Assembly: GCF_014191605.1 (NCBI RefSeq)
Contig: NZ_JACHWU010000007.1
Location: 1 to 64,000, forward strand
Direction: 5' to 3'
Length of the DNA: 64,000 nt
Source of the DNA: Prauserella isguenensis
GTDB lineage: Bacteria > Actinomycetota > Actinomycetes > Mycobacteriales > Pseudonocardiaceae
This document shows positions 27,476 through 59,038 of this stretch, piece by piece. The notes under the pieces were generated by a model. That model saw only the letters and a list, made by a program, of their open reading frames with translations, was not told where the DNA came from and did no database searches. The position numbers were made by a program, and so were the translations under genes. Numbering within the stretch: position 1 is the stretch's first letter; each line of letters begins with the position of its first letter.

Positions 27476-27730
27476 TTAGCAGCCTGCCTTATCGAAGACA
27501 ACTGCGAGCAACGTTTGCAGACTGGTGACACCTTCCAGATCATAGAGCCCGATCTCGAGGTCGAATTTGTCGTTCATTACTACTGCAACTTCCGCAATTC
27601 CAAGCGAATCTATTCCGATCAGCGACAAAAGCGCAGTCGGGTCGATGCGGTCGGCACAGGCCCCTTGCTCTGTGAATACTTCCAGTACCATTTGTTCGAT
27701 GGCTTCGCGGGTCGCGGTGGGCGCAACCAT
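27476..27730 (-). CDS. Acyl carrier protein (first of two)
   Basis: An 84-aa ACP with the phosphopantetheine site Ser42 in LIGIDSLGIAEV. ATG 27730 follows GGAGG at good spacing; the longer frame adds a non-conserved leader. It departs from standard type II PKS ACPs, which carry G(Y/F)DSLA, so it may serve a starter unit or a separate acylation rather than chain extension. It stands alone, 193 bp after the aldo/keto reductase and reading the same way. No dedicated KSIII, acyltransferase or adenylating enzyme is in the window to show its partner. Confidence 0.82.
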   Translation of the reverse strand: MVAPTATREAIEQMVLEVFTEQGACADRIDPTALLSLIGIDSLGIAEVAVVMNDKFDLEIGLYDLEGVTSLQTLLAVVFDKAGC

Positions 27731-27923
27731 GTAATGGCCCCCCTCCGGATTATTTTCGTCGTTTATCGCAATCTGCAGTTTCGTGTGACGACCTGCTTGC
27801 TGATTCGCAGCTACGTTTGCGGCGTGTCGCCGCGACTGGTCGGTCCCTGTCACGCCGGAACTTCACAGGTATGGTTTCACACTCACCAGTACAGTGGAGC
27901 GAGCCTGGCCGCCTCCGGGCCCG

Positions 27924-28898
27924 TTACGAGTCGTCGTCCATCAGTGCTGCAACCATCGGAGCGTAGCGATCCCCGCTGACCGACGAGGCCGGGAAGCTGC
28001 CCTCAAGCCACTGGAGATCTTCTTCCTCCAACGTGAGATCCACTGCCCCGAGGTTCTCCTCCAGATGCTGGGGAGTTTTGCATCCGGCAAGGGTCAGGGG
28101 GGCGGAAGGTCGCGAGAGCACCCAGGCCAGGGCAACCTGGGCCATCGTCACCCCATGGCGATCCGCGACCCCACGCAGTGGGCCGAGCAGTGCGAGATTG
28201 CGCCCGACGTGCTCGTCCAGGAACCGTGGGAAATTGTGGCGCCAGTCGCCCTCGTCGAGGTGGTCGATGCCGTAGACCGTTCCGGTCAGGAAGCCGCGCC
28301 CCAGCGGCGCATACGCCCACAGCCGCACCCCGAGATCTTCCGCCGTGGGAAGGATCGCCGGTTCGGCGTGGCGTTGCCAGAGCGAGTACTCGGTCAGCAG
28401 CGCGGAGACCGGGTGCACCGCACACGCCCGCCGAAGCGTGCCGACAGCGACCTCCGACAGGCCGATCCCGCGGATCTTGCCTGACTGCACCAGTTCTCCC
28501 AGCGCGCCGACCGAGTCCTCCACGGGCACGTTCGGGTCCACCCAGGCCAGGCTATAGAGGTCGATGTGGTCGGTGCCGAGGCGCTTGAGTGAGGCGTCGC
28601 ACGCGCCATGTAGGTAGTCCCGAGAGCCGTCGAGGATCTTCCCGCGGTCGGGGTCCGGGCGGATACCTGTCTTCACCGAAATGCTGATGTCGTCCCGGTT
28701 CCCGGCCAGAACCCGACCGACAAGTTCCTCGTTGGCGCCATCGCCGTAGTAGTCGGCGGTGTCGACGACGCCGACTCCGTGGTCCAGCGCGGCATGAATG
28801 GTGGCGGCAACCTGTTTGGGATCCTCTACGCCGTAGGCGCCGATCATGCTCAGGCAGCCCAGGCCCAGGTCTTGTGCGGAGGTCTTCGGCTTAGACAC
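27924..28898 (-). CDS. Aldo/keto reductase with altered catalytic tetrad
   Basis: A 324-aa (alpha/beta)8-barrel NADPH-dependent reductase of the AKR superfamily. Tetrad members Asp46 and Tyr51 (VVDTADYYGDG) and Lys76 (SVKTG) are present. The position normally held by His (family YYLHRVDP) reads YSLAWVDP, with Ala118. NADPH-binding features near the C-terminus (LAGCKTPQHLEENLGA) are kept. Its start overlaps the end of the glycosyltransferase gene by 8 nt, so it belongs to the P450-glycosyltransferase-reductase operon. It may reduce a sugar or polyketide ketone; the missing His may change its activity. Confidence 0.83.
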   Translation of the reverse strand: MSKPKTSAQDLGLGCLSMIGAYGVEDPKQVAATIHAALDHGVGVVDTADYYGDGANEELVGRVLAGNRDDISISVKTGIRPDPDRGKILDGSRDYLHGACDASLKRLGTDHIDLYSLAWVDPNVPVEDSVGALGELVQSGKIRGIGLSEVAVGTLRRACAVHPVSALLTEYSLWQRHAEPAILPTAEDLGVRLWAYAPLGRGFLTGTVYGIDHLDEGDWRHNFPRFLDEHVGRNLALLGPLRGVADRHGVTMAQVALAWVLSRPSAPLTLAGCKTPQHLEENLGAVDLTLEEEDLQWLEGSFPASSVSGDRYAPMVAALMDDDS

Positions 28899-30042
28899 TG
28901 TTGCGTCCTTCCGTCAGTGATCGTGTGAGGTGACCTGCGATCTGCGCCGGTGCGGCCTGATCTTGGCAGTCCCGGGCTACCGTGGCGGCTCGTTCGGCGT
29001 AGCCTGGGTCTGCTAGGACCTGGTCGACGAGCCCGGCAATCTCGGAGGCCGGTGTCGAGATCCTGGCTCGGACACCGCACCCGCCCGCTACCAGGTGAGC
29101 GGCGTTCACGAACTGATCGGCGAAGTGCGGGACGACGATTTGTGGGACGCCGTACGCAAGCGAAGTCATGGTCGTTCCCGATCCGCCGTGGTGGACGACG
29201 GCTGCGCACGTGCCGACGACGGCGGCAAGCGGCATCCAGGTCGCCTCGCGAACTGGGCCTGGTAGCTTCGCCGGGTCGCCCAGCTTCGCCCTGTCCGACT
29301 CCCGCATTGCCACGACCACGTCCAGATCCTGCTCGTTCAGGGCGGCAACGAGGTCCGAAACCAGCGTCCCCACGTCGCCGTACCGGGGCAGGACCGTTCC
29401 CAGCGTCACCAGGACACGGGGCCGCTCGGGCTGGGCGAGGAACCGGGACTGCATATGGGCAGGGCCGTTGTAGGGCACGTAGCGCATGGCCCAGTCTGGA
29501 TTGGATTGGCCCCTCACCAGGAACGAAGGCGGGCACACCCCGATGGTCCGCATGGGCGGTGCCGGTTCGAGCTCCTGGCGAGCGAGTGCCTCCAGCCCCG
29601 CGCCGTGGATATCGGTGTGCAGCGGGATGCCCCAGAGGAATTCGACGTGGGGACAGCCGGCCCGGGAGGCGGCGATCCCGGCCGCGTAGGCCGAGGTTTC
29701 ACCGACGATGACATCGGGCTTCCAGGTGGCGCAGATCTCGCCGACGCCGGTGTGGTTGAGCATCGCGAGCCGCCCGAACCCCTCGCCGGTGCCCGCGCGG
29801 GCGGCGCTTTCTGTTGGGGGTTGCTGGGGCGCGCGGTCACCGGTGTCCGGGCGCATGATCTCGACCATCTCCATTGGCGGCGCGGTGGCCGCGCCGGCCA
29901 TGCCCGCCCCGGTGACGTGCGGTAGGAAGCTTTCGGCAGCGCCGACGAGAACCTCGTGCCCGGCGGCACGCAGGGCCCATAGGAACGGCACCATCGGAAA
30001 GAAGTGGCCTTCGGCGGGGTTCGTCACGGCCAGGACACGCAT
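28891..30042 (-). CDS. Glycosyltransferase, GT-B fold, GT1 family (antibiotic type)
   Basis: A 383-aa natural-product glycosyltransferase. The N-terminal acceptor domain starts MRVLAVTNPAEGHFFPMVPF. The C-terminal donor domain has VLVTLGTVL and the nucleotide-sugar motif VHHGGSGTTMTSLAYGVPQ, and DQFVNAAHL, typical of EryCIII/UrdGT-like enzymes. ATG 30042 follows GGAG and lies 11 nt after the P450 stop. No deoxysugar synthesis genes are present in the window, so its TDP-sugar probably comes from primary metabolism (for example TDP-rhamnose) or from elsewhere. Together with the two sugar-type O-methyltransferases at 48512 and 49781 it suggests an O-methylated hexose on an aromatic polyketide. 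Confidence 0.9.
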   Translation of the reverse strand: MRVLAVTNPAEGHFFPMVPFLWALRAAGHEVLVGAAESFLPHVTGAGMAGAATAPPMEMVEIMRPDTGDRAPQQPPTESAARAGTGEGFGRLAMLNHTGVGEICATWKPDVIVGETSAYAAGIAASRAGCPHVEFLWGIPLHTDIHGAGLEALARQELEPAPPMRTIGVCPPSFLVRGQSNPDWAMRYVPYNGPAHMQSRFLAQPERPRVLVTLGTVLPRYGDVGTLVSDLVAALNEQDLDVVVAMRESDRAKLGDPAKLPGPVREATWMPLAAVVGTCAAVVHHGGSGTTMTSLAYGVPQIVVPHFADQFVNAAHLVAGGCGVRARISTPASEIAGLVDQVLADPGYAERAATVARDCQDQAAPAQIAGHLTRSLTEGRNSV

Positions 30043-30053
30043 AGGATCTCCTT

Positions 30054-31298
30054 TCACCACTCGACGTCGAGCGCGCGGACCAGTCGGTGCATCCCGGGCC
30101 ACAGCCTCAATGCCTTTTCGCCCGATGGGCGCAGATCCGGGAACCGCTGTGCGAGCTCGCCGATCGCGCCGGAGAGCAGCCGCCGCGCCAGGTGCATCCC
30201 CACGCAGGATCGCGGGCCGTGCCCGAAGGTCAAGTGCCGGTTGGGGGTGCGGCGGATGCGCAGACTGTCGCTGTCCCCGAACTCTGCTTCGTCGCGGTTG
30301 GCGGAGGCGAACACAGCCATCACGTTGGTGCCGCTCTCCAGCTCGGCACCCCCGAGAGTCACCGGGCAGGTCGTGCGCCGACTGAGCGCCTGAATCGGGG
30401 AGTCCAACCGCAGCAGTTCCTCTACTGCCTGCGGCGCCAGGCCCGGGTTTGCTGCGAGTGCTCGCCAACTGGCACCGTCGGACAACAGCCGGTGGACCGC
30501 GAGACCGAGCGATGATGTGGTGGTGCTTTGCCCAGCCCCGATCAGCGCGATCAGGGTCTCCACGGTTGTACGCGCCACCGCCGCAGTGTGGGTGGAGCCG
30601 CCGTCCTGTACGGCCGTCACGATCTGGGAGATGAGGTCGGTGCCAGGGGACGCGATCCGCTCGGTGACGTAGTCGGTGAGCAGGCGCTGATACGGCACGA
30701 CCGCACCGGCCAGTTCGAGCTGCTTCGCACCATCCAGGGAGGCCCCTGCGGAGCTGAGCACCGACAGCGCGTACGCCCCATCGACGAGCGCTGGGAGATC
30801 CTCGTCGCGGAAACCGAGAGCCAGCGCCTTGCCGTGGATCGGTAGCGGCCTGCCCACAGCGGTCATCAGGTCACCCGGTCCGCGCTGGTCGAGCCTGTCG
30901 AGCAATGCGGAGATCGTCGCCGTCAGCTCGGCGTTCATCGCCCGCACCCGTTCGGGGCTGAAGGCGCGGGCGATCGGCTCGCGCGCCTTCAACCGAGCGG
31001 CGTCGCCGGGCTCCTCGTCAGGCGTGAACGGTGGGAATGCCTTCTGCAGCTCGGTCCGGGCGTCGTTGCTGAGCACCTCCATCACGCGCAGGACCCCGGC
31101 CATCGAGAAGACCTCGACGTCACCGAGAACACGGCGGACGTCGTCGTACCGGGTGACCATGTAAGCGCCAGTTGCGGGCGCGTAGAAGACTGGTTCCTCC
31201 CGTCGTGCCCTGGCGTAGAAGCCCCAAGGGGACTGTTGTAGCTCGATAGGATCGTACTCATCACCGACCGAGTCGGATTCGGGTGCGATTCCAGACAT
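30054..31298 (-). CDS. Cytochrome P450 (cluster)
   Basis: A 414-aa P450 with haem loop FGHGPRSCVGMHLA, K-helix ExxR in VEELLRLDSP and I-helix ALIGAGQSTTTSS. The usual acid-Thr pair is replaced by the Gln-Ser-Thr-Thr variation, which may affect oxygen activation. ATG 31298 has an AGGAGG-like site upstream. It is the first gene of the minus-strand operon with the glycosyltransferase and reductase. It is divergent from the O-methyltransferase at 31456. It resembles the P450 half of the fusion protein at 32551 (same GHGPRSCVG loop and similar L-T-P-x region), suggesting a common origin. Likely role: late oxidation of the polyketide scaffold. Confidence 0.9.
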   Translation of the reverse strand: MSGIAPESDSVGDEYDPIELQQSPWGFYARARREEPVFYAPATGAYMVTRYDDVRRVLGDVEVFSMAGVLRVMEVLSNDARTELQKAFPPFTPDEEPGDAARLKAREPIARAFSPERVRAMNAELTATISALLDRLDQRGPGDLMTAVGRPLPIHGKALALGFRDEDLPALVDGAYALSVLSSAGASLDGAKQLELAGAVVPYQRLLTDYVTERIASPGTDLISQIVTAVQDGGSTHTAAVARTTVETLIALIGAGQSTTTSSLGLAVHRLLSDGASWRALAANPGLAPQAVEELLRLDSPIQALSRRTTCPVTLGGAELESGTNVMAVFASANRDEAEFGDSDSLRIRRTPNRHLTFGHGPRSCVGMHLARRLLSGAIGELAQRFPDLRPSGEKALRLWPGMHRLVRALDVEW

Positions 31299-31455: not shown

Positions 31456-32514
31456 GTGAAGACGACCGACACCGGCCCGACCAGAGCCGCCCAGGACACC
31501 ACGGCCGCGACACCGCAGGCCTTCCACGAGGTGCTGCTCGCTTACTGCGGTTCCAAAACGCTCATGTCCGCAGTCGAGATCGACCTGTTCTCGACGTTGG
31601 CCGACGGCAAGAGAATGACTGAGGACGAACTCCGTAAACAGCTGAGCCTGCATCCCCGGCTGAGCCGGCACTTCCTGGACACGCTGGTCGCGCTCGACTT
31701 GCTAGTCAAGGACGGCGAGCACTATCGCAACAGCGCCGTCAGCGAACAGTACCTCGACCGCGCGAAGCCCACCTATGTGGGCGGATTCGCCGAGACGACC
31801 AACGACACCTTCTACCCGGCATGGGGCAAGCTCACGAAAGCGCTGCGCACTGGGCAAGCCCAGGCCCCGATCCCGCCCGACGACAGCGACCACCTGTTCC
31901 GGGTCAACGTGCACACCGAACCCGACCGGGTACGCCGATTCATGACGGCCATGGACTCCCACAGCACCGCGATGGCGGGCGAGCTGGCCCGGCTGCTGCC
32001 GTGGGACAGGTTCACTAGCTTCGCCGACATCGGCGGCTGCCGCGGCAACCTCAGCGCGCACCTCGTGCTCGCTCAGCCGCACCTGAAGGGCATCTGCCTC
32101 GACCGCGCCCAGTCCGCGCAGTTTTTTGACGAGCACATGACCGCACTGGGCACCACCGGCCGCGTCACCTTCCAGGCGGGCGATTTCTTCGCCGACGACC
32201 TACCTCGGGTCGACGTGCTCGTGTTCGGGCACGTGCTGCATGACTGGAGCCCGGAGAACCGCGTTCTTCTCATGGAGCACGCACATCGGGCACTCAATCC
32301 CGGCGGGATGATCGTGGTCTACGACCGCATGATCGACGGATCGCCGCTCGACCTGCACCGACTGTTCTACAGCCTCACCTTCATGCTCGCCTCTGGCGGA
32401 GGTTCCGAATACAGCGTCGAGCAGTGCTCCCGATGGCTCCTAGACGCCGGCTTCCACACCCCCCGCTCCCATCGGGTGCTCGCCGACCACTCCGTCGTCG
32501 TCGCCCAGCGCTGA
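31456..32514 (+). CDS. SAM-dependent O-methyltransferase (acetylserotonin/TcmO-like)
   Basis: A 352-aa enzyme with an N-terminal winged-helix dimerisation domain (about 15-110, LLAYCGSKTLMSAVEIDLFSTL) and a C-terminal Rossmann domain. The SAM site ADIGGCRGNLSAHLV is at about 193. Family landmarks include HVLHDWSPENRVLLMEHAHRAL and GGMIVVYDRM. Such enzymes methylate phenolic hydroxyls of aromatic polyketides. GTG 31456 starts the plus-strand operon that includes the FAD monooxygenase-P450 fusion, 36 bp downstream. Confidence 0.9.
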   Translation: MKTTDTGPTRAAQDTTAATPQAFHEVLLAYCGSKTLMSAVEIDLFSTLADGKRMTEDELRKQLSLHPRLSRHFLDTLVALDLLVKDGEHYRNSAVSEQYLDRAKPTYVGGFAETTNDTFYPAWGKLTKALRTGQAQAPIPPDDSDHLFRVNVHTEPDRVRRFMTAMDSHSTAMAGELARLLPWDRFTSFADIGGCRGNLSAHLVLAQPHLKGICLDRAQSAQFFDEHMTALGTTGRVTFQAGDFFADDLPRVDVLVFGHVLHDWSPENRVLLMEHAHRALNPGGMIVVYDRMIDGSPLDLHRLFYSLTFMLASGGGSEYSVEQCSRWLLDAGFHTPRSHRVLADHSVVVAQR

Positions 32515-32550
32515 CCGCGTCCCTCCACGATGACCATGAAAGGTGCAGCA

Positions 32551-35379
32551 GTGACCGACACCCATGTTCCTGTGCTGATCGTCGGCGGAGGCCTCACCGG
32601 CTTGTCAGCAGCGTTGTGTCTGGCGCGACTCGATATTGAGTTCTTGCTGGTCGACCGGCACTCGACCACCTCACGGCACCCGAAGGCACGGGCGATCAAC
32701 CCCCGTGCCAGCGAAGTACTCGGCTCGCTCGGCCTCGGCCGGGCACTGGCGGACAATCGGTCACCTATCGCGATCAACGACCAGCTCATCCACGTCCACT
32801 CACTCGCAGGTGAGGAGCGGATCCGCCTGCCCCGAGCGTCACAAGACGAGGTGAAGCTCGTCAGCTCGCACGGCTGGTCCCTGATCGACCAGAATCGCCT
32901 CGAACCGCTGCTGCTCGAACAGCTGCCCGGCGGTGCGGGCGAGATCAGATTCGGCACCGAGTGTACCGAATTGACGCAGGAGGAAGACCGTGTCCGCGTC
33001 GGGCTGCACGACTGTGAGACCGGCGCCGAGCACGAGGTATCGGCGGACTACGTGATCGCCGCGGACGGTGGGCGCAGCCCTCTGCGCGAGAAGCTCGGCA
33101 TTGCGACCGAAGGGCCCGGGACGCTCTCCTCGATGGTCAGCTACTTCTTCCGCGCCGACCTAACGCCCTACCTGCGAGACCGGCGCATCATCGCCGCCTA
33201 CGTGCTCAACGACCGGTTCAAGGGGACCCTCATGCCCCTGGACAACATCGATCGTTGGGTCTTCAACGTTTCGTACTACCCGGAGAAGGGCGAAGATCCG
33301 GCCGAGTTCGACCGCGAGTGGTGCGTGCGCAAGACGCGCGCCGGCGTCGGCGTGCCGGATCTCGATGTCGAAATCCTGAGCGACGAGCTGCTGCCGTGGG
33401 AGATCGCGGGCCGGGTGGCCGAACGATTGCGTCGAGGTCGCGTGTTCATCGCCGGAGACGCCGCCCACGTCATGCCGCCGACCGGTGCATTCGGTGCCAG
33501 CACTGGGATCCAGGACGTGCACAACCTCTGCTGGAAGATCGCGCACGTAGTGCACGGCCACGCCTCGGCGGGACTGCTCGACTCCTATGAGACCGAACGG
33601 CTGCCGGTTGCCCACCTGGTCGTGTCGCAATCGATGCTTCGGTTCACCATCCGGCAGGGTAGTGCGATCGAAGACGTTTCCGACCGAATGCTCGACGAGC
33701 TTGCCGTGTCTTTCGGTTACCGCTACCCGGACGACATGCCAGCCCGAGGCCGGGACTGCCACGTCGACGATCCTCGGGAGCGCATCGCCGAACCAGGCTG
33801 CCGCGCACCGCACGTCACCCTGGCTTGCTCCAGCGGTCCGGTCGCGCTCCACGATCTCTGCCGCTACGGCCGCTTCACAGCCCTGGTCGACAGCCACCAC
33901 CACGGGTCCGGGGACTTCGCGGCCGGGCTCGCCGAGTCCACACGGCCGCTCGATGCACTCCTGATCGGACCCGGCGGAGAGTGCTCCGACCCCGACGGCG
34001 AGTGGCGTCGCGTCTACGGACTCCACCAGGGCGGAACCGTGCTGATTCGGCCGGACGGGTTCATCGCGGCCACCTGGGCGGGGTTGCCGGAGTGTACGGA
34101 CGTGCTGACTGCAGTCGACCTGGCCGAGCGGCTCGGCGAGGACGACCCTGTCGGCACCCGCTTCCGGCCTTTCGGCGTCGACCCCCAGGATGAGCTGTTG
34201 GCCGAGGCGCGCACCGTCGAACCGGTGTTTCATTCGCCCGAACTGGATGCCTGGATCGTGACACGGCACGAGGATGTGAAGGCGATCCTGGGTAACACCA
34301 AGGCGTTCAGCCTCGCCACGGTGCCCGACCGGCTCGCCCGGCTCACGGACGAAGCCTACGCGGAGCTTGCCAAGACTTTCTCGGAAGTCCCGGTTGCCAT
34401 TCGCGAGGACGCGGTCGACGAAGCCCGCAAACGCGTGCGCACCCCCATCATGAAGGCCTTTGACCCGGAACGGATCGCGCAGCGCGAGGAGGCGGTGCTC
34501 GCCGAGATCGACGTTCTGATTGACCAGTTCGCCGGTCGGGGCGAGGCTGAGCTCATGGCCGAGTTCGCTCGGCAGTTGCCTGTGCGGGTCAAGGCGCCGA
34601 TACTCGGCATCGCCCCGGAGGACTACGACGAGTTCGTCGACGGCACCTACCGGTTCATGAAACTCCACTCGGTCGCCGCGCAGCTGCCTGCGGACGACCA
34701 GATGGCACTTGCCCGCCAGGTTGTTAGCTATCAGCAGCTGCTAGACCGGTACGGACAGGAACGCTGGCAGCGGCCCCGCGAAGACCTCTTCAGTGACGTA
34801 GTCGCCGCCATGGCCTCGGGCACCGGACCGCTCTCGGTGGCCGAGCGAAAAGCAGTCGTCGATGGCATGACGGGACTCATCGCCGCCGGTCATTTCACCA
34901 CCACGGCCGCACTCGGCACCAGCTTGCTGGAGCTGCTGCGCCGCCCCGCGCTGTGGCAGCGGCTCGTGGCCAATCCGGGACTGGCCACCGCGGCGGCCGA
35001 TGAGCTCGTCCGTTACCGCAGCCCGGTGCGCGGACTCATGCGGCGTACCACGAAATCCGTGCGAGTCGGAGCGGTGACGCTGCCGCCGAAGACAGAGCTG
35101 ATGATCAGCTACCAGTCGGCCGATCGGGACGGCGAGGTGTTCCCAGACCCAGACGAGATCAAGCTGGACCGGGGGCGCACCGAGCACTTCGGTTTCGGGC
35201 ACGGCCCGCGCTCCTGTGTCGGCGAAGCGCTGGGCAGACAGCTGCTCACGCTGACGTTGCGCAGATTTGCACAGCGGCTGCCCGACCTGGAGCTGCCACC
35301 CGGCCACGAGCCGGTGTACCTGCCCGGGCTTCACGTGATCCTCGACAGCCTGCCGGTACGGTGGTCGGTCAGCCAGTGA
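32551..35379 (+). CDS. FAD monooxygenase-cytochrome P450 fusion protein
   Basis: One uninterrupted 942-aa frame joins two oxygenases. Residues 1-535 are a class A flavin monooxygenase: FAD motif VLIVGGGLTGLSAAL at the start, DG motif IAADGGRSPLR, GD motif FIAGDAAHVMPPTGAFGAST, and a thioredoxin-like C-terminal part. From about residue 541 (FGVDPQDELLAEARTVEPVF) a nearly complete P450 follows: I-helix LIAAGHFTTTAALG, ExxR in DELVRYRSP, and haem loop HFGFGHGPRSC with Cys889. GTG 32551 has an upstream AAAGGTG site; ATG 32530 is the alternative. The two activities probably perform successive oxidations of one intermediate. I know of no characterised enzyme with this domain order. Confidence 0.92.
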   Translation: MTDTHVPVLIVGGGLTGLSAALCLARLDIEFLLVDRHSTTSRHPKARAINPRASEVLGSLGLGRALADNRSPIAINDQLIHVHSLAGEERIRLPRASQDEVKLVSSHGWSLIDQNRLEPLLLEQLPGGAGEIRFGTECTELTQEEDRVRVGLHDCETGAEHEVSADYVIAADGGRSPLREKLGIATEGPGTLSSMVSYFFRADLTPYLRDRRIIAAYVLNDRFKGTLMPLDNIDRWVFNVSYYPEKGEDPAEFDREWCVRKTRAGVGVPDLDVEILSDELLPWEIAGRVAERLRRGRVFIAGDAAHVMPPTGAFGASTGIQDVHNLCWKIAHVVHGHASAGLLDSYETERLPVAHLVVSQSMLRFTIRQGSAIEDVSDRMLDELAVSFGYRYPDDMPARGRDCHVDDPRERIAEPGCRAPHVTLACSSGPVALHDLCRYGRFTALVDSHHHGSGDFAAGLAESTRPLDALLIGPGGECSDPDGEWRRVYGLHQGGTVLIRPDGFIAATWAGLPECTDVLTAVDLAERLGEDDPVGTRFRPFGVDPQDELLAEARTVEPVFHSPELDAWIVTRHEDVKAILGNTKAFSLATVPDRLARLTDEAYAELAKTFSEVPVAIREDAVDEARKRVRTPIMKAFDPERIAQREEAVLAEIDVLIDQFAGRGEAELMAEFARQLPVRVKAPILGIAPEDYDEFVDGTYRFMKLHSVAAQLPADDQMALARQVVSYQQLLDRYGQERWQRPREDLFSDVVAAMASGTGPLSVAERKAVVDGMTGLIAAGHFTTTAALGTSLLELLRRPALWQRLVANPGLATAAADELVRYRSPVRGLMRRTTKSVRVGAVTLPPKTELMISYQSADRDGEVFPDPDEIKLDRGRTEHFGFGHGPRSCVGEALGRQLLTLTLRRFAQRLPDLELPPGHEPVYLPGLHVILDSLPVRWSVSQ

Positions 35380-35800
35380 CCACCTGCACGCTGAACAGCG
35401 CCAGGGCCGCGACCGAGGCGGTGAGCCGGACGAAGTGCCAGCGCCGCCATGCCGCGCGTGGGTCTTCGGCCACAGGGGCCCGGCCCGACTTGACCCGTCG
35501 GTTGATAGGCACGTTCCCAAACTGCGATACCAAGGACACTGCGAACAGACAAGCCAGCGCCGCCACACGCAGCAGCGACGGCCCCGCAATGAAGAGCAGA
35601 GCGACCATCCCGAGCACGGTGAGCACGACGACCGGGGGCATCACCTTGTCGAAGTGCCTGCCGAACACGATGTGGGCCTCGACGTAGTCCTCGTAGGACA
35701 GTGCGCGGAAACCCGGTACGAGGCTCAACGCGACGCAGCACATAACACCAGCGGTGACACCAGATCCCACGAGCACCAGAACAGTCAACAAATCACGCAT
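35369..35800 (-). CDS. DUF1772 anthrone-oxygenase-like membrane protein
   Basis: A 143-aa protein with four hydrophobic segments (about 1-28, 52-72, 76-95 and 123-142) and the family landmarks PINRRVKSG and WRRWHFVRLTAS of DUF1772. Relatives act as anthrone oxygenases in polyketide pathways, oxidising an anthrone to an anthraquinone without a cofactor, although others only have a presumed role. ATG 35800. It converges with the fusion gene, overlapping its end by 11 bp, and is divergent from the cyclase at 35916. Role by homology; activity not certain. Confidence 0.72.
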   Translation of the reverse strand: MRDLLTVLVLVGSGVTAGVMCCVALSLVPGFRALSYEDYVEAHIVFGRHFDKVMPPVVVLTVLGMVALLFIAGPSLLRVAALACLFAVSLVSQFGNVPINRRVKSGRAPVAEDPRAAWRRWHFVRLTASVAALALFSVQVVTG

Positions 35801-35915
35801 GCGACCACAGTGACGGCACCAGCACCGGCCGCCCTTGAGAATCCGGCCTAGACCCTCACTGGAGAACCCACAGCAACGATCTGATGACGCACGACTTCCC
35901 CGAAGGAGGAACCCG

Positions 35916-36254
35916 GTGACAGGACAACATCGGACACTGATCATCGCCCGCGCTGACCGGCGTTCGCTGGCGGACATCGGCCGGATCTTCGCCGAATCCG
36001 ACGCCACCAATCTGCCGCACCGGCTCGGTGTGCGCAGGCGGTCGCTGTTCCACTACCGCGACCTGTACTTGCACCTGATCGACGCCGACGCACCGGTCCT
36101 CGGACCACTCGAACAGGTGCGCGACGACCCGGACTTCCAGGAGGTGAACGAGCGTCTTTCGACGTTCGTAACCCCGTATTCGCCGGAATGGCGGACGGCG
36201 GGTGACGCCATGGCGAATGAATTTTACACCTGGTCGTCCGAGGAGGGACAGTGA
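35916..36254 (+). CDS. TcmI-like polyketide cyclase
   Basis: A 112-aa dimeric alpha/beta ferredoxin-like cyclase of the TcmI family: LIIARADRRSLADIGRIFAESDATNLPHRLGVRRRSLFHYRDLYLHL is recognisable, as is the C-terminal PYSPEWRTAGDAMANEFYTW. GTG 35916 has a GGAGG site 8 bases upstream (35906-35910). TcmI-type cyclases close later rings in tetracenomycin and pentangular pathways. It is followed at 36254 by the cupin and the ketosynthases, in the order cyclase-cupin-KS-alpha-KS-beta of pentangular and spore-pigment-type clusters. Confidence 0.85.
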   Translation: MTGQHRTLIIARADRRSLADIGRIFAESDATNLPHRLGVRRRSLFHYRDLYLHLIDADAPVLGPLEQVRDDPDFQEVNERLSTFVTPYSPEWRTAGDAMANEFYTWSSEEGQ

Positions 36255-36721
36255 TGACTGCGGAAGACCTGGAAACCCGTCACAAGTCGGTCGATGACGT
36301 GCCTGCGCGCACGCACCGGGGCGGATCGATGCGGCTGCTGTTCGGGCCGTCGTCCGGCTGCGAGGATGGCCTGTTCGGTGTGCTCGACCTTGCTCCGGGA
36401 GAGGTGTTCCGCGAGCACTACCATCCCTTCTCCGAGGAGTGCTTGTACGTGGCCTCCGGTTCTGTTGTCGTGGGGATTGACGGCGACCACGTGCCGCTCG
36501 AGCCGGGCGGCGCGATCCGAGTCCCCCGCAACGCGCGACACCAGGTACTGAACGAATCCACCGTGTTCGCGCGTGTGGTGTTCAGTCTTTATGGTGTCGC
36601 ACCCTCGCCTGGATTAGGGCACGTGGAGACCGAGCCGGCGCCCGCAGCGACAGAGCCTAAGGCGATGCAGGGATCCGCGATCATATCCGGGAGCAAGGAG
36701 CCCCGGAATGTCCACGAGTAG
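36254..36721 (+). CDS. Cupin-domain protein (TcmJ-like)
   Basis: A 155-aa single cupin. Metal-binding motif 1 is GEVFREHYHPFSEECLYVASG and motif 2 is PRNARHQVLNES, with the His/Glu ligands retained. Related cupins (TcmJ, WhiE-ORFII type) accompany type II PKS cyclases and help fold the chain; their chemistry is still debated. ATG 36254 follows AGGAGGG. The 3' end overlaps KS-alpha by 14 bp. The C-terminal 35 residues after the cupin are unstructured. Confidence 0.85.
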   Translation: MTAEDLETRHKSVDDVPARTHRGGSMRLLFGPSSGCEDGLFGVLDLAPGEVFREHYHPFSEECLYVASGSVVVGIDGDHVPLEPGGAIRVPRNARHQVLNESTVFARVVFSLYGVAPSPGLGHVETEPAPAATEPKAMQGSAIISGSKEPRNVHE

Positions 36722-37970
36722 TCCCGCTACAGCCGCAATCACGGGCGTTGGCGCCGTCGCCCCGGGCCGTACCGGACGTGACGCGTTCTGGGAGCTACTC
36801 GCCGCGGGCCGGACCGCAACACGCACGATCAGCAGCTTCGACCCGGCGCCGTTTCGGTCACGAGTGGCTGCTGAGTGTGAGTTCGACTCCGCTGCAGTCG
36901 CCGATACCTGGCTGCGTGACGCGGACCGGGCTAACCAGCTCGCGGTCACCGCGGCCACCGAAGCGTGGCACGACGCGGGCATCCGCACCACACCCGGACG
37001 AATCGGAGTGGTGGTAGGCAGCGCGGTCGGCTGCACTGTCGCCCTCGAGCGGGAGTACGTGCGTCTCAGTGAACGAGGCTCGCGCTGGCTGGTCGATCTG
37101 GAGCCTGCGAGCGGCCGCCTGCACGATCACCTTGTGCCCAGCAGCATTGTCCGCGATGTCGCTTGGTCGCTCGGCGCCGAGGGACCGTGCCGGCTGGTAT
37201 CTAACGGCTGCACCTCAGGTCTCGACGTGGCTCGCCACGGCCTGCAGATGCTGCACGGCTTCGACCTCGACGCGGTGGTCGTCGTGGGTGCCGACGCTCC
37301 TATCTCGCCGATAACAGTCGCGTGCTTCGATGCCATCAAGGCCACCAGCCCGAACAATGATGACCCGGCGCATGCCAGCCGTCCCTTTGACCGCGATCGC
37401 GATGGCTTTGTGCTGGGCGAGGGCGCGGCGGCTCTAGTCCTGGAGATGCCGCACCGCGCCGAGGACCGCGCCGCCGACCTCTACGGGCGGCTGCTCGCAG
37501 CGCACAGCCGTGCCAACGCCTACCACATGACCGGCCTGCGTACCGACGGCCGCGAGATGGCCGAGGCGATCCGCGCAGCACTTGAGGCAAGCGAACTCGA
37601 CCCGGACGAGATCGATTATGTAAACGCCCACGGATCCGGCACCAAGCAGAACGACCGGCACGAGACGGCGGCCGTCAAAACCGCACTGGGTGCCCGGGCC
37701 AGATCCGTGCCGATGAGTTCCATTAAGAGCATGATCGGCCACTCACTCGGTGCCATCGGCACCCTGGAACTCGCAGCCTGTGCGCTCATGCTGCGGCACC
37801 AGTTCATTGTCCCCACAGCCAACTACCAGACCCCCGATTCCGAGTGCGACCTCGATTACGTTCCCGAAACCGGACGCGCCGCCCGAATCCGCGCCCTGAT
37901 CAGTGTCGGGTCCGGATTTGGCGGGTTCCAAAGCGCGGTCGCACTCGCCCACGACGGTGGGCGAGCATGA
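36708..37970 (+). CDS. Type II polyketide ketosynthase alpha (KS-alpha)
   Basis: A 420-aa beta-ketoacyl synthase. Active Cys168 is in VSNGCTSGLDV. The two catalytic His are in NAHGSGTKQND and IGHSLGA, and the KS-alpha signature GFVLGEGAAALVLE is present. It condenses malonyl extender units on the ACP with the chain-length factor encoded next, whose ATG overlaps this stop by 4 nt (37967-37970). Length and motifs are normal. Chain length is not predictable by eye, but the associated cyclase set is of the long-chain pentangular type. Confidence 0.95.
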   Translation: MSTSSPATAAITGVGAVAPGRTGRDAFWELLAAGRTATRTISSFDPAPFRSRVAAECEFDSAAVADTWLRDADRANQLAVTAATEAWHDAGIRTTPGRIGVVVGSAVGCTVALEREYVRLSERGSRWLVDLEPASGRLHDHLVPSSIVRDVAWSLGAEGPCRLVSNGCTSGLDVARHGLQMLHGFDLDAVVVVGADAPISPITVACFDAIKATSPNNDDPAHASRPFDRDRDGFVLGEGAAALVLEMPHRAEDRAADLYGRLLAAHSRANAYHMTGLRTDGREMAEAIRAALEASELDPDEIDYVNAHGSGTKQNDRHETAAVKTALGARARSVPMSSIKSMIGHSLGAIGTLELAACALMLRHQFIVPTANYQTPDSECDLDYVPETGRAARIRALISVGSGFGGFQSAVALAHDGGRA

Positions 37971-39181
37971 CTGCCGTCGTCACCGGGATCGGAGTGTGGA
38001 CCTCTGCAGGCAAGGGACTCGACGAGTTCTGGAAGACCGTGTCCGCGAGCACCGTGACCCTGAGCGAACTGACCCGCTTCGATCACAGCACCTACCCGTT
38101 CACACTGGCCGGCCAGCTGCGCGACCACGGGGCCACCGGCATACCGTCCCGCCTGATCGCACAGACGGATGTGTGGACCCGGCAGGGTTTGGAGGAGAGC
38201 CTCCTCGCTCTGGACGACGCTGCGCTGGATCTGGCGGCCGTCGCCGAATACGACGCGGGAATCGCCCTGGCGAGCTCAGCGGGCGGAGTCGAGTTCGGCC
38301 AACGAGAGATCAGCGCGCTGTGGGCCCAAGGCCCGCAGCACGTCAGCGCCTACCAGTCAATCGCCTGGTTTTACGCCGCCACCACCGGGCAGACCTCGAT
38401 CCACCACCGCATCCGCGGCCAATGCGACGCGGTCGTCGCCGAGGGCGCGGGCGGGCTGGATGCGCTCGCCGTGGCCGACCAGGCGCTCGCCGACGGGACG
38501 TCGTCGATCATGCTGTGCGGCGGCACAGACTCGGCGCTGAGCCCGTACGGCATGGTGTGTCAGTGGTCCAGTGGGCTGCTGTCCGGCCAAACCGATCACG
38601 AGAAAGCCTACCGGCCCTTCCACGAGAAAGCCGACGGCTGGGTCCCAGGTGAGGGCGGCGCGGTCCTGGTTGCGGAGACACCCGCCGCCGCCAGCGCCCG
38701 GTCCGCCGAACCCTACGGCAGCCTCGAGGGCTTCGGTGCGTCGTTCGACCCACCGCCGGAGAGCGATCGGTCCTCGTCGCTGCCCACCGCGATCGATCAA
38801 GCCCTCACCCAGGCACAGGTACGCCCCGGCGAGGTCGACGTGGTCTTCGCCGACGCGGCGGCAGTCCCCGACTGGGACCGCGCAGAGGCTGAGTCCCTGG
38901 CCAGGGTCTTCGGCTCCCGCGCAGTCCCGGTGACGGCCCCCAAATCCGGCTATGGTCGGCTCTACTCAGGAGGCGGTGCCGTGGACACCGCGACAGCCTT
39001 GCTCGCCATGCGCTACGGCGTCCTCCCGCCGACCCCCAACGCCCCGTCGGCCCACCCCCTGCTTGACCTCGTCTGTGATGCCCGGGAAGGGAAGTTCACC
39101 ACCGCCCTAGTGGTGGCTCGGGGACACGGCGGCTTCAACTCAGCCGTGGTGTTGAAGGCGGGAGCGAACACCAAGCGGTAA
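37967..39181 (+). CDS. Type II polyketide chain-length factor (KS-beta)
   Basis: A 404-aa partner of KS-alpha. At the place of the catalytic Cys it carries Gln142 (AATTGQTSIHH), which is the hallmark of the CLF and allows decarboxylation of malonyl-ACP to start the chain. Other landmarks include MTAVVTGIGVWTSAG and GWVPGEGGAVLV. ATG 37967 overlaps the KS-alpha stop. The usual ACP gene is not directly downstream; instead the aromatase/cyclase follows after 35 bp. Confidence 0.95.
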   Translation: MTAVVTGIGVWTSAGKGLDEFWKTVSASTVTLSELTRFDHSTYPFTLAGQLRDHGATGIPSRLIAQTDVWTRQGLEESLLALDDAALDLAAVAEYDAGIALASSAGGVEFGQREISALWAQGPQHVSAYQSIAWFYAATTGQTSIHHRIRGQCDAVVAEGAGGLDALAVADQALADGTSSIMLCGGTDSALSPYGMVCQWSSGLLSGQTDHEKAYRPFHEKADGWVPGEGGAVLVAETPAAASARSAEPYGSLEGFGASFDPPPESDRSSSLPTAIDQALTQAQVRPGEVDVVFADAAAVPDWDRAEAESLARVFGSRAVPVTAPKSGYGRLYSGGGAVDTATALLAMRYGVLPPTPNAPSAHPLLDLVCDAREGKFTTALVVARGHGGFNSAVVLKAGANTKR

Positions 39182-39216: not shown

Positions 39217-39684
39217 ATGGCCGCATTCACCGAGAACGCCGTGTTCATCAACGCACCCCTCGAGTTCGTCTGGGAGGTTACCAACGACGTCGCGAACTGG
39301 CCGTCGCTCTACTCGGAGTACGCCGCCGCCGAGGTGCTCGAACAAACATCAGAGCGAATCGTGTTTCGCCTGACCACCACCCCCGATGAGCAAGGCCGGA
39401 CCTGGACGTGGGTCTCCGAACGGCGCCCCGACCCCGAGACCCGCACAGTCCGGGCCAAGCGGATCGAGCCCGGCCCGTTCGAGCACATGGACATCTTCTG
39501 GAGCTATACCGAACGCGACGGCGGCACCGAAATGTTGTGGCAGCAGCACTTTCACATGCGTGACGACGCACCGCTCGACGACGAAGCAATGCGCGCGCGG
39601 ATCAATACGAACACCCGCGTGCAGATGGACCTGATCAAACAGCGGCTTGAGGAACGAGCCGCCGCCAACGGCGAAGGAGTGTGA
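39217..39684 (+). CDS. Aromatase/cyclase, single SRPBCC domain
   Basis: A 155-aa START/Bet v1-like aromatase-cyclase: [35 protein letters not shown] is a typical start, with [24 protein letters not shown] and WQQHFHM in the middle. A single domain of this size resembles TcmN-ARO/CYC-type and WhiE-ORFVI enzymes that aromatise the first rings. It lies between the chain-length factor and the ketoreductase, and its stop abuts the ketoreductase start region. Confidence 0.9.
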
Positions 39685-39686
39685 GC

Positions 39687-40415
39687 ATGACCGACCTGAC
39701 AGGCAGGCGGATCCTGGTGACCGGTGGTACCCGCGGCATCGGCCGTGGCGTGTCGGTAGCGCTGGCCAGGCATGGCGCCACCGTCGTGGCCGGCTACCAC
39801 CAGGATGAGGACGAGGCGGAGAGTACCCTGCAGGATCTGGTGGCGCTGGGCCAAGTGGGCCACCGTGTGGTCCGCGCCGATATCACCACCGACACCGGCC
39901 GGGACCAGTTGCTCGCGGGGTGCGAGGGCAGCCTTGACGGTCTGGTCACCTGCGCTGGCGCAATCAGCCACGTGAAGCTCGATGACCTCGCGGTGGAGGA
40001 GTGGCAACGCGTTCTTGACATCAACCTGACCACTGCGTTCGCCCTCACTCAGGCGGCGATACCGCTGCTGCCTGCCGACGGAGCCGTCGTCTACGTCGGC
40101 TCGAAGGTCGCGACCGTCGGGGTGCCGTTACGAGCGCACTACACGGCGGCGAAGGCCGGCTTGCTGGGCCTCATGCGCAGCGTGTGCAAGGAGCGCGGTG
40201 CGGCAGGCTGGCGGGTTAACCTTGTCGCTCCCGGCGTCATCGAGTCGCCAGCCGTCGATGCGCTGCCACCCGAGGCTCGCGCCCGGTACGAGCACATGGC
40301 GGCGCTGGGCAGGATCGGCCGTCCGGACGAGGTGGGCGAGGTGGTCGCGTTTCTGCTAAGCCCACGCGCCTCCTACGTCACAGGCGAGGTGATCAATGTC
40401 GACGGCGGAATGTGA
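39687..40415 (+). CDS. FabG-like SDR ketoreductase
   Basis: A 242-aa short-chain dehydrogenase. The NADPH motif [11 protein letters not shown] is near residue 10, catalytic Ser in YVGSKVAT, and the YxxxK motif in HYTAAKAG; the C-terminus [11 protein letters not shown] is classical. ATG 39687 is preferred over GTG 39681 because AAGGAG is at proper spacing. In pentangular pathways (for example PdmG, BenL-type) a FabG-like ketoreductase acts at a late carbonyl of the chain, different from the C-9 ketoreductases of anthracyclines. Its overlap with the ABM gene indicates one operon. Confidence 0.88.
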
Positions 40416-40773
40416 ACCCGAAACCACCGGGCGGGTGAAAGTGCTGCTGTGGTGCCGCTACCCAGAAAATGGCGAGCCCCGAGAAATTGAGCAGCTATTT
40501 GACCGGATCGGTGATTTACTGCGCGGAACGCCCGGACTGCTGGGCAGTGAATTGCTCGTCTCGCTGAGTATGCCTGGGTGCTTCGCCGTGCTCAGTGAAT
40601 GGGCCAGCCGAGCAGAGTTCGAAGTTTGGGAGCAGGGAAGCGAGCATCGTTCCCTAACAGCAGGGATGCGTCCTTTTCAAGATCCATTACGTATGCCGAA
40701 GTTCGACGTTCTGCTGGTATCGCGTGAGAGCGACGGCGCGTGGCCCGATGGGCGAGAAGTGGTGCCGCCATAA
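40396..40773 (+). CDS. Antibiotic biosynthesis monooxygenase (ABM family), with TTA codon
   Basis: A 125-aa ferredoxin-like quinone-forming monooxygenase of the ABM family ([52 protein letters not shown]). Such cofactor-free enzymes oxidise phenols to quinones in polyketide pathways (PdmH-like). It starts 20 nt inside the ketoreductase gene. Codon 41 is TTA (40516-40518), rare in high-GC actinomycetes, which suggests dependence on the bldA-type leucine tRNA. A second ABM gene lies at 44701. Confidence 0.85.
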
Positions 40774-44700: not shown

Positions 44701-45024
44701 TCACCCTCGCTCGCCCGGAAGGTGCGATACCACGGCCATGCTTTTCATCGAGCCGCCTCTGCGGTACGGGTGTAAGAGCTCACGGTGGCGCAGGTGCCGT
44801 TCCGACCCTTCGAACCGCCGAAACTCCGCTTCGTCCGTCCAATCGCTTATGACATAGTAGATGTTCGACTGAACAGCATCGCGTAGCAACCACTGGCCAA
44901 GGTTCGCCGGATCAGCGGAGACGCTAGTGCCCACTTCGGTCCAGATCTTCTCAAACTCCGCGGTCAGCTCCGGCACGATGTCCAGCTCGAGTACGATGCG
45001 CCAGCCCGGTATTGCCGCGGTCAC
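44701..45024 (-). CDS. Antibiotic biosynthesis monooxygenase (ABM family), second copy
   Basis: A 107-aa ABM-fold protein (WRIVLELDIVPELTAEFEKIWTEVG, YYVISDWTDEAEFRRFEGSERH). Its start overlaps the stop of the ACP gene by 4 nt, so ACP and monooxygenase are translated together. Similar in size and pattern to the product of 40396, but not a close copy. Role: quinone-forming or ring-oxidation step on an aromatic intermediate. The 3' end has a fragment duplicate 680 bp downstream (44018). Confidence 0.8.
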   Translation of the reverse strand: MTAAIPGWRIVLELDIVPELTAEFEKIWTEVGTSVSADPANLGQWLLRDAVQSNIYYVISDWTDEAEFRRFEGSERHLRHRELLHPYRRGGSMKSMAVVSHLPGERG

Positions 45025-45281
45025 GCCCGCACGTCTTCCTGCTCGATTGCGGCGATTAGCAATTCGCGCGGGGTGGATGTGGCGCTCAGCACGAGGTCGG
45101 AGCTGAACCGGATTCCGTGAGCTCGCTCAATTCGTCCCATGAGTTCCTGACGGGCCAGGGAGTCAAATCCGATCTCGTCGAAATTTCGGTCGAGCGGATC
45201 GTCGGGTCCTCTAGTTGTGAACTCCTCACCGGAAATCGCATTCATAGCTGTGACTAGCGAACTCTCGCTAATGTTTGTCAT
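45021..45281 (-). CDS. Acyl carrier protein of the minimal type II PKS
   Basis: An 86-aa ACP. The sequence LDRNFDEIGFDSLARQELMGRIE around phosphopantetheine Ser41 is that of type II PKS ACPs (D..F.E.G(Y/F)DSLA). ATG 45281 follows a perfect AGGAGG (minus strand). Normally this gene sits right after the chain-length factor; here it is about 6 kb away on the opposite strand and coupled to an ABM gene. That displacement points to rearrangement of the cluster. Confidence 0.9.
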   Translation of the reverse strand: MTNISESSLVTAMNAISGEEFTTRGPDDPLDRNFDEIGFDSLARQELMGRIERAHGIRFSSDLVLSATSTPRELLIAAIEQEDVRA

Positions 45282-48511: not shown

Positions 48512-49300
48512 ATGAACGGCAACGCCCGATATCTCGATCTGCTTGAGCGCGTATTGACGAATGAGATCTACCGTGATCCGCCTGCTGGCCCGCACTATCT
48601 CGTGGGCCGGGAATACGACCAGCGGCTGCGCGAGACAGGAAAGGACTGGCCTTCCGTAGCGCATACTATGGCCGGATCACGGTGCCTGAGGCAGGTCCGG
48701 TCGGCTGTCGAGCATATCCTGGGCAATGGGATTCCCGGCGACCTAGTGGAGGCCGGCGTGTGGCGCGGTGGGGTATGCATCTTCATGCGTGCGTTGCTGG
48801 AGGTATACGGCGACCCAGCGCGGCGTGTCTGGGTCGCGGACTCATTCCACGGGATGCCGGAGTCCGGTGCGGCGGGAGACAGCGAACTCGCCCTACATGA
48901 GTTCAACGATGTACTTGCCGTGTCCCAGGAGACCGTTGAAGAGAACTTCCGCAGTTACGGTCTGCTGGATGATCGGGTGGCCTTCCTCTCCGGCTGGTTC
49001 GAAGACACACTCCCCGCAGCACCGATCGACCGAATCGCCCTGCTGCGGATGGACGCCGACCTCCGCTCGTCGACCACGTCGATCCTGACCAACCTCTACG
49101 ACAAGGTTTCCCTGGGGGGAATCATCGTGGTAGACGACTACTCGCTCCCGATGTGTAGTGACGCTGTCCGAGAGTTCCGCGACCAACGTGACATCACCGA
49201 CCCGATCCACTCGATCGACGACGACGCAGTGTGGTGGCGCAAAGGCAGCGCGACGCCACGTGTCGAATCGGGCGTGTCGGCGAAAGCTGGCGCGTCGTGA
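48512..49300 (+). CDS. TylF/MycF-type deoxysugar O-methyltransferase
   Basis: A 262-aa metal-dependent SAM methyltransferase of the macrocin-O-methyltransferase (TylF/MycF) family: PGDLVEAGVWRGGVCIFMRALLEVYGD (SAM site), ADSFHGMP, the metal-binding LLRMDADLRSSTTS and GGIIVVDDYSLP. Relatives methylate the 3-hydroxyl of 6-deoxyhexoses already attached to an aglycone. ATG 48512 follows GGAGG. The end overlaps the start of the flavin-reductase remnant by 4 nt. With the MycE-like gene at 49781 it indicates a doubly O-methylated sugar. Confidence 0.88.
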   Translation: MNGNARYLDLLERVLTNEIYRDPPAGPHYLVGREYDQRLRETGKDWPSVAHTMAGSRCLRQVRSAVEHILGNGIPGDLVEAGVWRGGVCIFMRALLEVYGDPARRVWVADSFHGMPESGAAGDSELALHEFNDVLAVSQETVEENFRSYGLLDDRVAFLSGWFEDTLPAAPIDRIALLRMDADLRSSTTSILTNLYDKVSLGGIIVVDDYSLPMCSDAVREFRDQRDITDPIHSIDDDAVWWRKGSATPRVESGVSAKAGAS

Positions 49301-49784
49301 CCGAGCAACCGGTACTGGGCCTGGTCGTCGGGACGACCCGACCGCAAGGACGGGGATAGCGGTTGCGCGCAGGTGAGGCAGGTCACCCGTGAACCCGCAG
49401 GTTGCACGGTGGTCTGCCACGGTCGGCCAGTGCGACGGGCTTGTCGTCGTCACACCCGAGTACGAATGGGCCGACAAGGCCGTGGGTTTGGTCGGCTATG
49501 CCGGTCAAGGGGGAGTTCGCGCCGTCGAGCATCTGCGCAGTGTGTGCGGCCAGCTGAAGCTGGCGGACGTATGGACCCAGTCCGGTCTATCGTTCGCAGC
49601 GGACTTCGACGAACAGGATGGATGCAATTCGGGGGAGAGTCAGTTCGGGTTAGGCCACAAGATGATCGCCGAGGTGATCGCGTCGGCTGCCGCGCTGAAG
49701 CCGCTGCGAGTGCGAAAGTTCGGCGTACTCGGTGCGGATGCACCACCGTCCCTCGCACCGATGTCGACCCGAGGTGAACAGTGA
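49297..49784 (+). pseudogene. NADPH-dependent FMN reductase, degraded
   Basis: A flavodoxin-like reductase gene in decay. GTG 49297 overlaps the previous stop and starts well (PVLGLVVGTTRPQGRG, the FMN-loop start), but meets TAG after 20 codons. A second piece from 49389 continues with CDGLVVVTPEY, jumps straight to EWADKAVG (about 17 residues between these blocks are missing) and reads on through GGVRAVEHLRSVCGQL to the end. About 45 residues are also absent between the two pieces. The downstream part may still be translated and keeps the coupling to the next gene (4-nt overlap). Confidence 0.8.
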
Positions 49785-50968
49785 CGGACACCCAAGACGT
49801 GATGAGGCTGCTCGCCGCCGCTGAAGGTTCCGAGACGACCCTGCGTGCCACGGTCGACGACCTCGGCTCGGCTCGAGTCGCAACCCTGCTCACAGGGGAA
49901 GTCTGCTTCCGGGCTCGTCTCGACGAACTCGGGCCGCGGATGTCCACACCGGTAAGGGTAATACTGGAGTTCCAGTGCACAGACCAGTCTTTCCCTACCA
50001 TGATCACGGTCGAGGGCGGAGGCGTTCGTGTCGGTGCCGACCAACCGGCGCATCTGCCGGTCACCGTTGTATCTCAGGACCTATACGAGGCGGTCCGCAC
50101 CGTGTATGGGCCACGTGAGCTGGCCGCTACTGTGAGCCAGGCCGTACGCTGGCCCGAGATGGCGGTGATGGCCGCGGCGGGAAGGCCAAGCGAAGCAGTC
50201 CCCACGGCCTTCTACCCTATCGTGCAGCGAATAATCCGGTCCTTATCGCGCAGCGAGCACGCGGATCTCGCGGAACTCGCGGCAGAGTGCGGTACCGACA
50301 AGTGGAGCGCACTACACCGGTACCCAGAGCATTACAATCGCCACTTTGGCCCCCTGCGCGAACGAAGGCTGAATGTGCTCGAGATCGGTGTCGGCGGGTT
50401 CGACGAAACCGGGCTTGGTGCCGCTTCCCTGCGCATGTGGAAGCATTATTTTCCCCGCGCGGTTCTGTACGGACTGGACATCGCGGACAAGAGTTCGCTC
50501 GATGAGGCGCGTATCGTGACAGTACGCGGGGACCAATCCGATCGGGCGGCTCTGACCGCATTGGCGGACCAGGCAGGACCCTTCGACATCGTGATCGACG
50601 ACGGTAGCCACGTGAGCGCCGACGTGCTTGCGTCGTTCGAGTTCCTGTTCGGCCAACTGAATCCTAACGGTCTGTATGTCATCGAGGATCTTCAGACTTC
50701 GTACTGGAAACCGATGTTCAGCGGCGACGACTACGACCTTACCGATCCGAAACATACGATGGGTTTCATTAAGACACTCCTGGACGGCCTGCACCACCAG
50801 GAATTTCTTCACGTAGACGCACGAGCGGAACAACCAACCGACCACTGGATCCGAGGTGTGCACATCTACCACAACCTGTGTTTCATCGAAAAAGGACCAA
50901 ACGTCGAGGAATCACCATTCGCAAACCTCATGCGACGTTGGGAAAATACCGATCAGTCGTCCTCCTGA
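49781..50968 (+). CDS. MycE-like sugar O-methyltransferase
   Basis: A 395-aa enzyme, matching MycE (mycinamicin 2''-O-methyltransferase) in length and architecture: an N-terminal auxiliary domain (about 1-150), then LAELAAECGTDKWSALHRYPEHYNRHF and the SAM domain with RRLNVLEIGVGG. The metal site DDGSHVSADVL (about 270) and VIEDLQTSYW are those of MycE. Such enzymes methylate a 6-deoxyhexose hydroxyl after glycosylation. GTG 49781 overlaps the preceding frame by 4 nt. In elloramycin-type pathways several methyltransferases act on rhamnose in succession; with one glycosyltransferase and two sugar methyltransferases this cluster fits that plan. Confidence 0.88.
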   Translation: MTDTQDVMRLLAAAEGSETTLRATVDDLGSARVATLLTGEVCFRARLDELGPRMSTPVRVILEFQCTDQSFPTMITVEGGGVRVGADQPAHLPVTVVSQDLYEAVRTVYGPRELAATVSQAVRWPEMAVMAAAGRPSEAVPTAFYPIVQRIIRSLSRSEHADLAELAAECGTDKWSALHRYPEHYNRHFGPLRERRLNVLEIGVGGFDETGLGAASLRMWKHYFPRAVLYGLDIADKSSLDEARIVTVRGDQSDRAALTALADQAGPFDIVIDDGSHVSADVLASFEFLFGQLNPNGLYVIEDLQTSYWKPMFSGDDYDLTDPKHTMGFIKTLLDGLHHQEFLHVDARAEQPTDHWIRGVHIYHNLCFIEKGPNVEESPFANLMRRWENTDQSSS

Positions 50969-55334: not shown

Positions 55335-55384
55335 CAGCGGCGAGCGGACGCTCACGCCGCGCTCGATTCTTGGAGAAATGTGTC

Positions 55385-59009: not shown

Positions 59010-59038
59010 GCTAACCACGCCTGCTGAGGAGCACTGCC

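Follow-up and report, generated by a model that had tools for sequence, protein, structure and literature searches.

The window, by which we mean the whole 64-kb stretch of DNA that was analysed, encodes on its forward strand a single polypeptide of 942 amino acids in which a class A flavin monooxygenase (FMO) is followed by a cytochrome P450 (Table 1). The frame is uninterrupted and free of stops in translation. Pfam places FAD_binding_3 at aa 6-360 (296 bits), Rng_hyd_C, the thioredoxin-like C-terminal domain, at aa 415-512 and the p450 domain at aa 740-910, and solved P450s align in phmmer across nearly all of aa 541-942. The first half carries GGGLTG (aa 12), AADGG (aa 170) and AGDAAH (aa 301), and thus has the GxGxxG, DG and GD motifs that, together with FAD_binding_3, define a class A flavoprotein monooxygenase. 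The second half carries the I-helix AGHFTT (aa 779), ELVR (the ExxR motif, aa 818) and FGFGHGPRSCVG (aa 880) with Cys889, that is, the haem Cys loop, ExxR and I-helix Thr of a cytochrome P450 (PF00067). The sequence-only reading had described a complete class A FMO and then a P450 on one chain; all the motifs it named are present, Cys889 included.

We prefer the GTG at 32551 as start codon over the upstream ATG at 32530, because the GTG and its ribosome site AGGTG are conserved in a second copy of the gene from Amycolatopsis, whereas the ATG is not. Immediately before the P450 half the two copies share no in-frame start codon, which makes a separately produced P450 unlikely; an internal start yielding the free P450 was rejected on this ground.

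Table 1. Positions in the window of the fusion gene, its parts and the genes of the surrounding conserved cluster
Feature	Position	Strand	Remarks
Aldo-keto reductase	27924..28898	-	Left edge of conserved cluster
EryCIII-like glycosyltransferase	28891..30060	-	
Stand-alone P450	30054..31382	-	Nearest relative of fused P450 (41%)
O-methyltransferase, GrhL-like	31456..32514	+	Pfam Methyltransf_2; 36 bp upstream of fusion, co-directional
FMO-P450 fusion gene	32551..35379	+	942 aa, GTG start; 81% ortholog over aa 1-941 in Amycolatopsis (L001/G147:C67)
Class A FMO half, three domains, aa 1-512	32551..34086	+	Pfam FAD_binding_3 and Rng_hyd_C; GrhO8/RubO clade, tree support 100/99
Inter-domain linker region, aa 528-549	34132..34197	+	Predicted disordered, pLDDT <50 (AlphaFold2)
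Cytochrome P450 half, aa 541-942	34171..35376	+	Pfam p450; phmmer to P450 structures
P450 I-helix AGHFTT	34885..34902	+	Thr kept, Phe at usual acid position, also in Amycolatopsis copy
Haem-binding loop FGFGHGPRSCVG	35188..35223	+	Cys889 codon 35215-35217
Anthrone-oxygenase-like protein	35369..36010	-	Pfam Anthrone_oxy; convergent with fusion
Polyketide cyclase (Cyclase_polyket)	35916..36254	+	GrhQ position
Cupin, GrhS-like	36251..36721	+	
Ketosynthase alpha	36708..37970	+	61-62% to rubromycin-type KS-alpha; identity not used to assign product class
Ketosynthase beta / chain length factor	37967..39181	+	46-50% to rubromycin-type
Aromatase/cyclase (Polyketide_cyc)	39217..39684	+	Like N-terminal half of GrhT
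SDR ketoreductase	39681..40415	+	
Small ABM-domain protein	40396..40773	+	
ABM-domain monooxygenase, GrhU-like	44701..45024	-	55%
Acyl carrier protein of cluster	45024..45281	-	
TylF-type sugar O-methyltransferase	48512..49300	+	
MycE_N-type sugar O-methyltransferase	49781..50968	+	Right edge of conserved cluster

The fusion gene is embedded in a type II polyketide cluster at 27.9-51.0 kb of the window, which also encodes a SAM methyltransferase and has counterparts of the rubromycin-type PKS core, cupin, cyclases, GrhL, GrhO8 and GrhU. The order of the O-methyltransferase and the fusion matches the published grhL-grhO8 order, and the O-methyltransferase is 40-43% identical to the one beside the GrhO8-type FMO in rubromycin-type clusters. 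Homologs of GrhO5, GrhO6, GrhO9 and the asparagine-synthase GrhP were not found within 27.9-51.0 kb, and assignment as a true rubromycin or griseorhodin biosynthetic cluster was rejected for this reason. A gene for a dTDP-glucose 4,6-dehydratase lies in another part of the genome, and the product predicted from the gene content is a glycosylated, O-methylated aromatic polyketide. The stand-alone P450 gene overlaps that of the glycosyltransferase, whose best NCBIfam model is an activator-dependent family; such an overlap is typical of P450-like activators, yet this P450 retains its haem ligand.

Several other features of the window deserve mention. Just left of the cluster lies a second acyl carrier protein gene (27476-27853, minus strand; GIDSL motif), of which no counterpart was seen in the Amycolatopsis copy. 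A protein of 1351 aa (13837-17892, minus strand) combines DUF4011, AAA helicase and MTES_1575 REase domains and is followed by a 284-aa protein lacking a Pfam match (12986-13840, minus strand); the two genes have a lower third-position GC than their neighbours and look like a defence-type nuclease-helicase pair, with a phage-type integrase nearby (11514-12803). A run of small genes that ends in an FtsK/SpoIIIE-like protein (20902-24770) suggests that the polyketide cluster has an integrative conjugative element as its neighbour. At 55370-60990 a meta-cleavage operon for aromatic degradation encodes a class A FMO, a LigB-type dioxygenase and an aldolase with a DmpG_comm domain.

The same 942-aa fusion is present in an Amycolatopsis metagenome-assembled genome (L001, contig NZ_JAODNM010000147.1, apparently identical with the 34,337-base contig G147:C67); the two proteins align colinearly and free of gaps at 81% identity. 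G147 carries the family code of the window, which would place the latter in Pseudonocardiaceae, to which Amycolatopsis belongs. The two clusters are colinear over 27.9-51.0 kb, with genes that are 54-83% identical. In the Amycolatopsis cluster the acyl carrier protein and the ABM protein occupy one 193-aa frame, an apparent ACP-ABM fusion (L048 5691-6272, equivalent to 25691-26272 of G147:C67, minus strand); their counterparts in the window (44701-45281) are two genes in different frames. The ratio of non-synonymous to synonymous change between the two fusions (omega, Nei-Gojobori) was 0.154 for the FMO half, 0.091 for the P450 half and 0.21 for the linker, the last being imprecise as it derives from 28 codons. 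Since dS is near 1 the values are rough; still, both halves are clearly constrained and under purifying selection, most strongly the P450 half. A lost stop or an indel near 34.15 kb that artificially joined two genes, which the sequence-only reading had named as one outcome that would overturn it, has a negligible probability, for the Amycolatopsis assembly is independent of that of the window and contains a frame of identical length. Taken with the purifying selection, this implies that the gene is neither an assembly error nor a decaying gene, and an error at the junction was ruled out.

The fusion is also rare. Searches of 390 genomes of the window's family, 395 of its class and 396 of its phylum, overlapping samples that together comprise more than 700 actinomycete genomes, yielded no additional full-length fusion, and six other genomes of the window's genus gave no match to the fusion at the search cut-off. 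A pattern scan of 84,980 species genomes, capable of detecting close relatives only, likewise returned no further full-length fusion. The same was true of 72,556 plasmids, in which the two-half matches were annotated as separate genes. As the genome and plasmid scans targeted relatives of the 942-aa fusion, we do not claim that the FMO-P450 architecture is unique. Phrase searches of the open-access literature, which were not exhaustive, uncovered no relevant report of an FMO-P450 fusion, in line with the earlier statement that no characterised protein is known to have this order. The fusion is thus confirmed as conserved and rare; what is new is the joined architecture, both parts being of known kinds.

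The affinity of the FMO half could be traced in some detail. Its closest stand-alone relatives (48-51% identical) come from type II PKS clusters, where they adjoin an O-methyltransferase; four of the genomes belong to another family of the class and one to the window's own family. In the cluster of genome G737 one FMO has a tree distance of zero from the solved RubL, and this cluster is therefore of the rubromycin type. In the published cluster order, an O-methyltransferase (GrhL homolog of the hyaluromycin producer, 343 aa) is followed by two FMOs, first a homolog of GrhO8 (535 aa) and then one of GrhO9 (534 aa) (PMC5765640), by which the neighbouring genes of the relatives can be recognised as GrhL and GrhO8. 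In a tree of the rubromycin-cluster FMOs the FMO half falls within the GrhO8 set (support 100/99), and placement with GrhO9 (p-AU 0.002), and hence orthology to it, or with GrhO5 (p-AU 0.009) was rejected; in a wider tree of 42 rows it has no supported placement.

The substrate pocket tells the same story. In GrhO5 the residues R79 and H217 hold and activate the substrate (PMC9299503). The positions of R79, H217 and E95 are taken by L79, Y217 and P94 in the fusion, a set that in our alignment is common only to GrhO8-type rows, GrhO9 having I, F and D. The gatekeeper W283 and R368 (R366 in GrhO5) are kept, so that of the basic substrate cluster R79, H217 and R366 of GrhO5/RubL only the last remains. 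The best PDB matches are GrhO5, RubL and RdmE; the predicted structure of the FMO half superposes on GrhO5 and RubL, and Foldseek also returned RebC. Ordinary aromatic hydroxylation has been proposed for GrhO8 (PMC8772269), though not reconstituted. By clade and pocket, the FMO half belongs to the GrhO8/RubO hydroxylase type; we speak of a GrhO8-type domain and not of GrhO8, because it is fused to a P450. A spiroketalase was ruled out by the tree and the pocket, and the spiro-type rearrangement that had been suggested from the sequence is consequently unsupported.

The closest relative of the fused P450 is the stand-alone P450 of the same cluster, and the fused and stand-alone pairs of both genomes form one clade (100/100). 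Outside the cluster the best matches reach 36% identity in plasmids and 34-38% in genomes of the class. All four copies (two fusions and two stand-alone P450s) retain the haem Cys, the ExxR motif and the Thr of the I-helix. However, the I-helix acid position is Phe in both fusions and, as read from the alignments, the C-helix His is apparently Arg, so that the P450 may be no ordinary hydroxylase; judged by these residues, it may use an unusual proton path. Ferredoxins of PF13459, the sole family sought, are absent from the window's contig. The two halves are joined by a linker of about 20 residues, and aa 513-540 are 54% identical to the Amycolatopsis copy, versus 80% for the FMO half and 85% for the P450 half. 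The AlphaFold2 model, built on a shallow alignment, has a mean pLDDT of 75 and a pTM of 0.56; the mutual position of the halves is undefined in it and no claim about a tunnel is therefore possible.

On balance, we consider it somewhat more probable than an even chance that the fusion acts after the PKS as a bifunctional tailoring oxygenase, in a pathway to an aromatic polyketide of the pentangular type (rubromycin-like core), combining hydroxylation by the FMO with a second oxidation by the P450. The FMO half, with NADPH, O2 and a C4a-hydroperoxyflavin, would add a hydroxyl group to a phenol ring of the core, the type of reaction proposed for GrhO8, and the adjoining O-methyltransferase would methylate a phenol on that ring. 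Electrons for the P450 half would come from a ferredoxin and a reductase encoded elsewhere, and this half would then oxidise the FMO product further. This step might offer another route to the job of the missing GrhO9, or place a hydroxyl for the glycosyltransferase of the cluster; the absence of GrhO9 and the attachment of the P450 to a GrhO8-type domain lead us to favour such a second core oxidation or sugar-accepting hydroxyl. The fusion would set the two activities at a ratio of 1:1 and hold an oxidation-prone hydroquinone near the next enzyme, and channelling of an unstable intermediate between the halves is plausible. The TylF- and MycE-type enzymes would O-methylate the deoxysugar of the final product, a glycoside. 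For comparison, in pradimicin biosynthesis the P450s PdmJ and PdmW hydroxylate the pentangular core, after which PdmS glycosylates it (PMC10951976).

Closer cooperation can be envisaged as well. Both sites might act on one intermediate, a short-lived product of one domain being caught by the other, or the reduced flavin might feed the haem, and the resulting change of skeleton would be beyond either enzyme by itself; we regard this as rather unlikely. At the other extreme, the gene may have arisen by chance fusion within an operon, its halves acting at unconnected steps and their joining only fixing co-expression. We consider this a minority possibility: the linker is flexible and poorly conserved, the domain arrangement is ill-defined as judged by the pTM, and unfused FMO and P450 genes adjoin in the Pseudonocardia plasmid pBCI2-2, but the fusion has stayed intact in two genera at 81% identity, with no change in length. 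A xanthone-type rearrangement, in which an FMO half resembling XanO4 removes a methoxy group and converts an anthraquinone to a xanthone that the P450 finishes, seems improbable. It would suit the pairing of the FMO with an O-methyltransferase gene, the XanO4 reaction including methoxy loss (PMC9327801), and XanO4, 42% identical to GrhO5, is a member of that broad FMO family (PMC7933358); nevertheless, the nearest clade is that of GrhO8, for which conventional hydroxylation has been proposed (PMC8772269).

Two further readings concern the P450 half itself. That it has become a non-catalytic helper, like the P450-derived activators of glycosyltransferases, is quite improbable. The unusual I-helix acid position would fit, as would the overlap of its nearest relative with a glycosyltransferase gene whose best model is activator-dependent, but the haem Cys, ExxR and I-helix Thr are retained in both fusions and both stand-alone copies, purifying selection is strongest on precisely this half, and the activator model TIGR04515 scores 102 bits for the fusion and 108 bits for the stand-alone P450 against a cut-off of 343. 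Assignment to that activator family was rejected on the scores and the retained haem ligand. Equally, one would hardly expect a self-sufficient P450, its haem supplied with electrons by the FAD half in the manner of the reductase domains of P450 BM3 or CYP116B. The two halves share a chain, and a PF13459 ferredoxin is lacking near the cluster; against this, the FAD half is by domain and clade a class A hydroxylase, of the type that makes a flavin hydroperoxide, and Pfam detects no FMN or iron-sulphur domain. In fact, where CYP102 and CYP116B have an FAD/FMN or FMN/2Fe-2S reductase on the chain, the fusion has an oxygenase-type FAD domain only.

Separate oxygenases acting in series diversify the aromatic polyketide antibiotics, and their order and coupling are hard to establish. 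The fusion names two steps that evolution has linked, those of a GrhO8-type hydroxylase and a P450, and provides a tractable protein for the study of substrate transfer between flavin and haem oxygenases, its interest hinging on cooperation between the two active sites. Moreover, it marks an uncharacterised cluster for a glycosylated aromatic polyketide for product discovery.

The relation of the fusion to known systems can be specified as follows. GrhO8 and RubO, the predicted class A aromatic hydroxylases of griseorhodin and rubromycin, share with it 48-51% identity, the clade, the pocket signature and the O-methyltransferase neighbour, but are stand-alone proteins of about 535 aa that lack a P450 half. 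The spiroketal synthases GrhO5 and RubL, the closest solved structures, have the same three-domain FMO fold and the gatekeeper Trp in common with the fusion, whereas their R79 and H217 are absent from it, and placement with GrhO5 was rejected. PdmJ and PdmW resemble the proposal for the fusion in that a P450 hydroxylates a pentangular core before glycosylation; they are not described as fused. The self-sufficient P450s CYP102 and CYP116B also have a flavin domain joined to a P450, yet theirs is an electron-transfer reductase located C-terminal to the P450, while that of the fusion is an N-terminal oxygenase. Finally, indolocarbazole biosynthesis uses FMO-P450 pairs that work together on one intermediate, RebC with RebP and StaC with StaP. 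These are separate proteins with a different substrate, whereas the fusion is one chain and the cooperation of its halves is hypothetical. RebC matches the FMO half in structure, and a fusion whose two sites acted on one intermediate would represent a covalent version of the RebP/RebC partnership.
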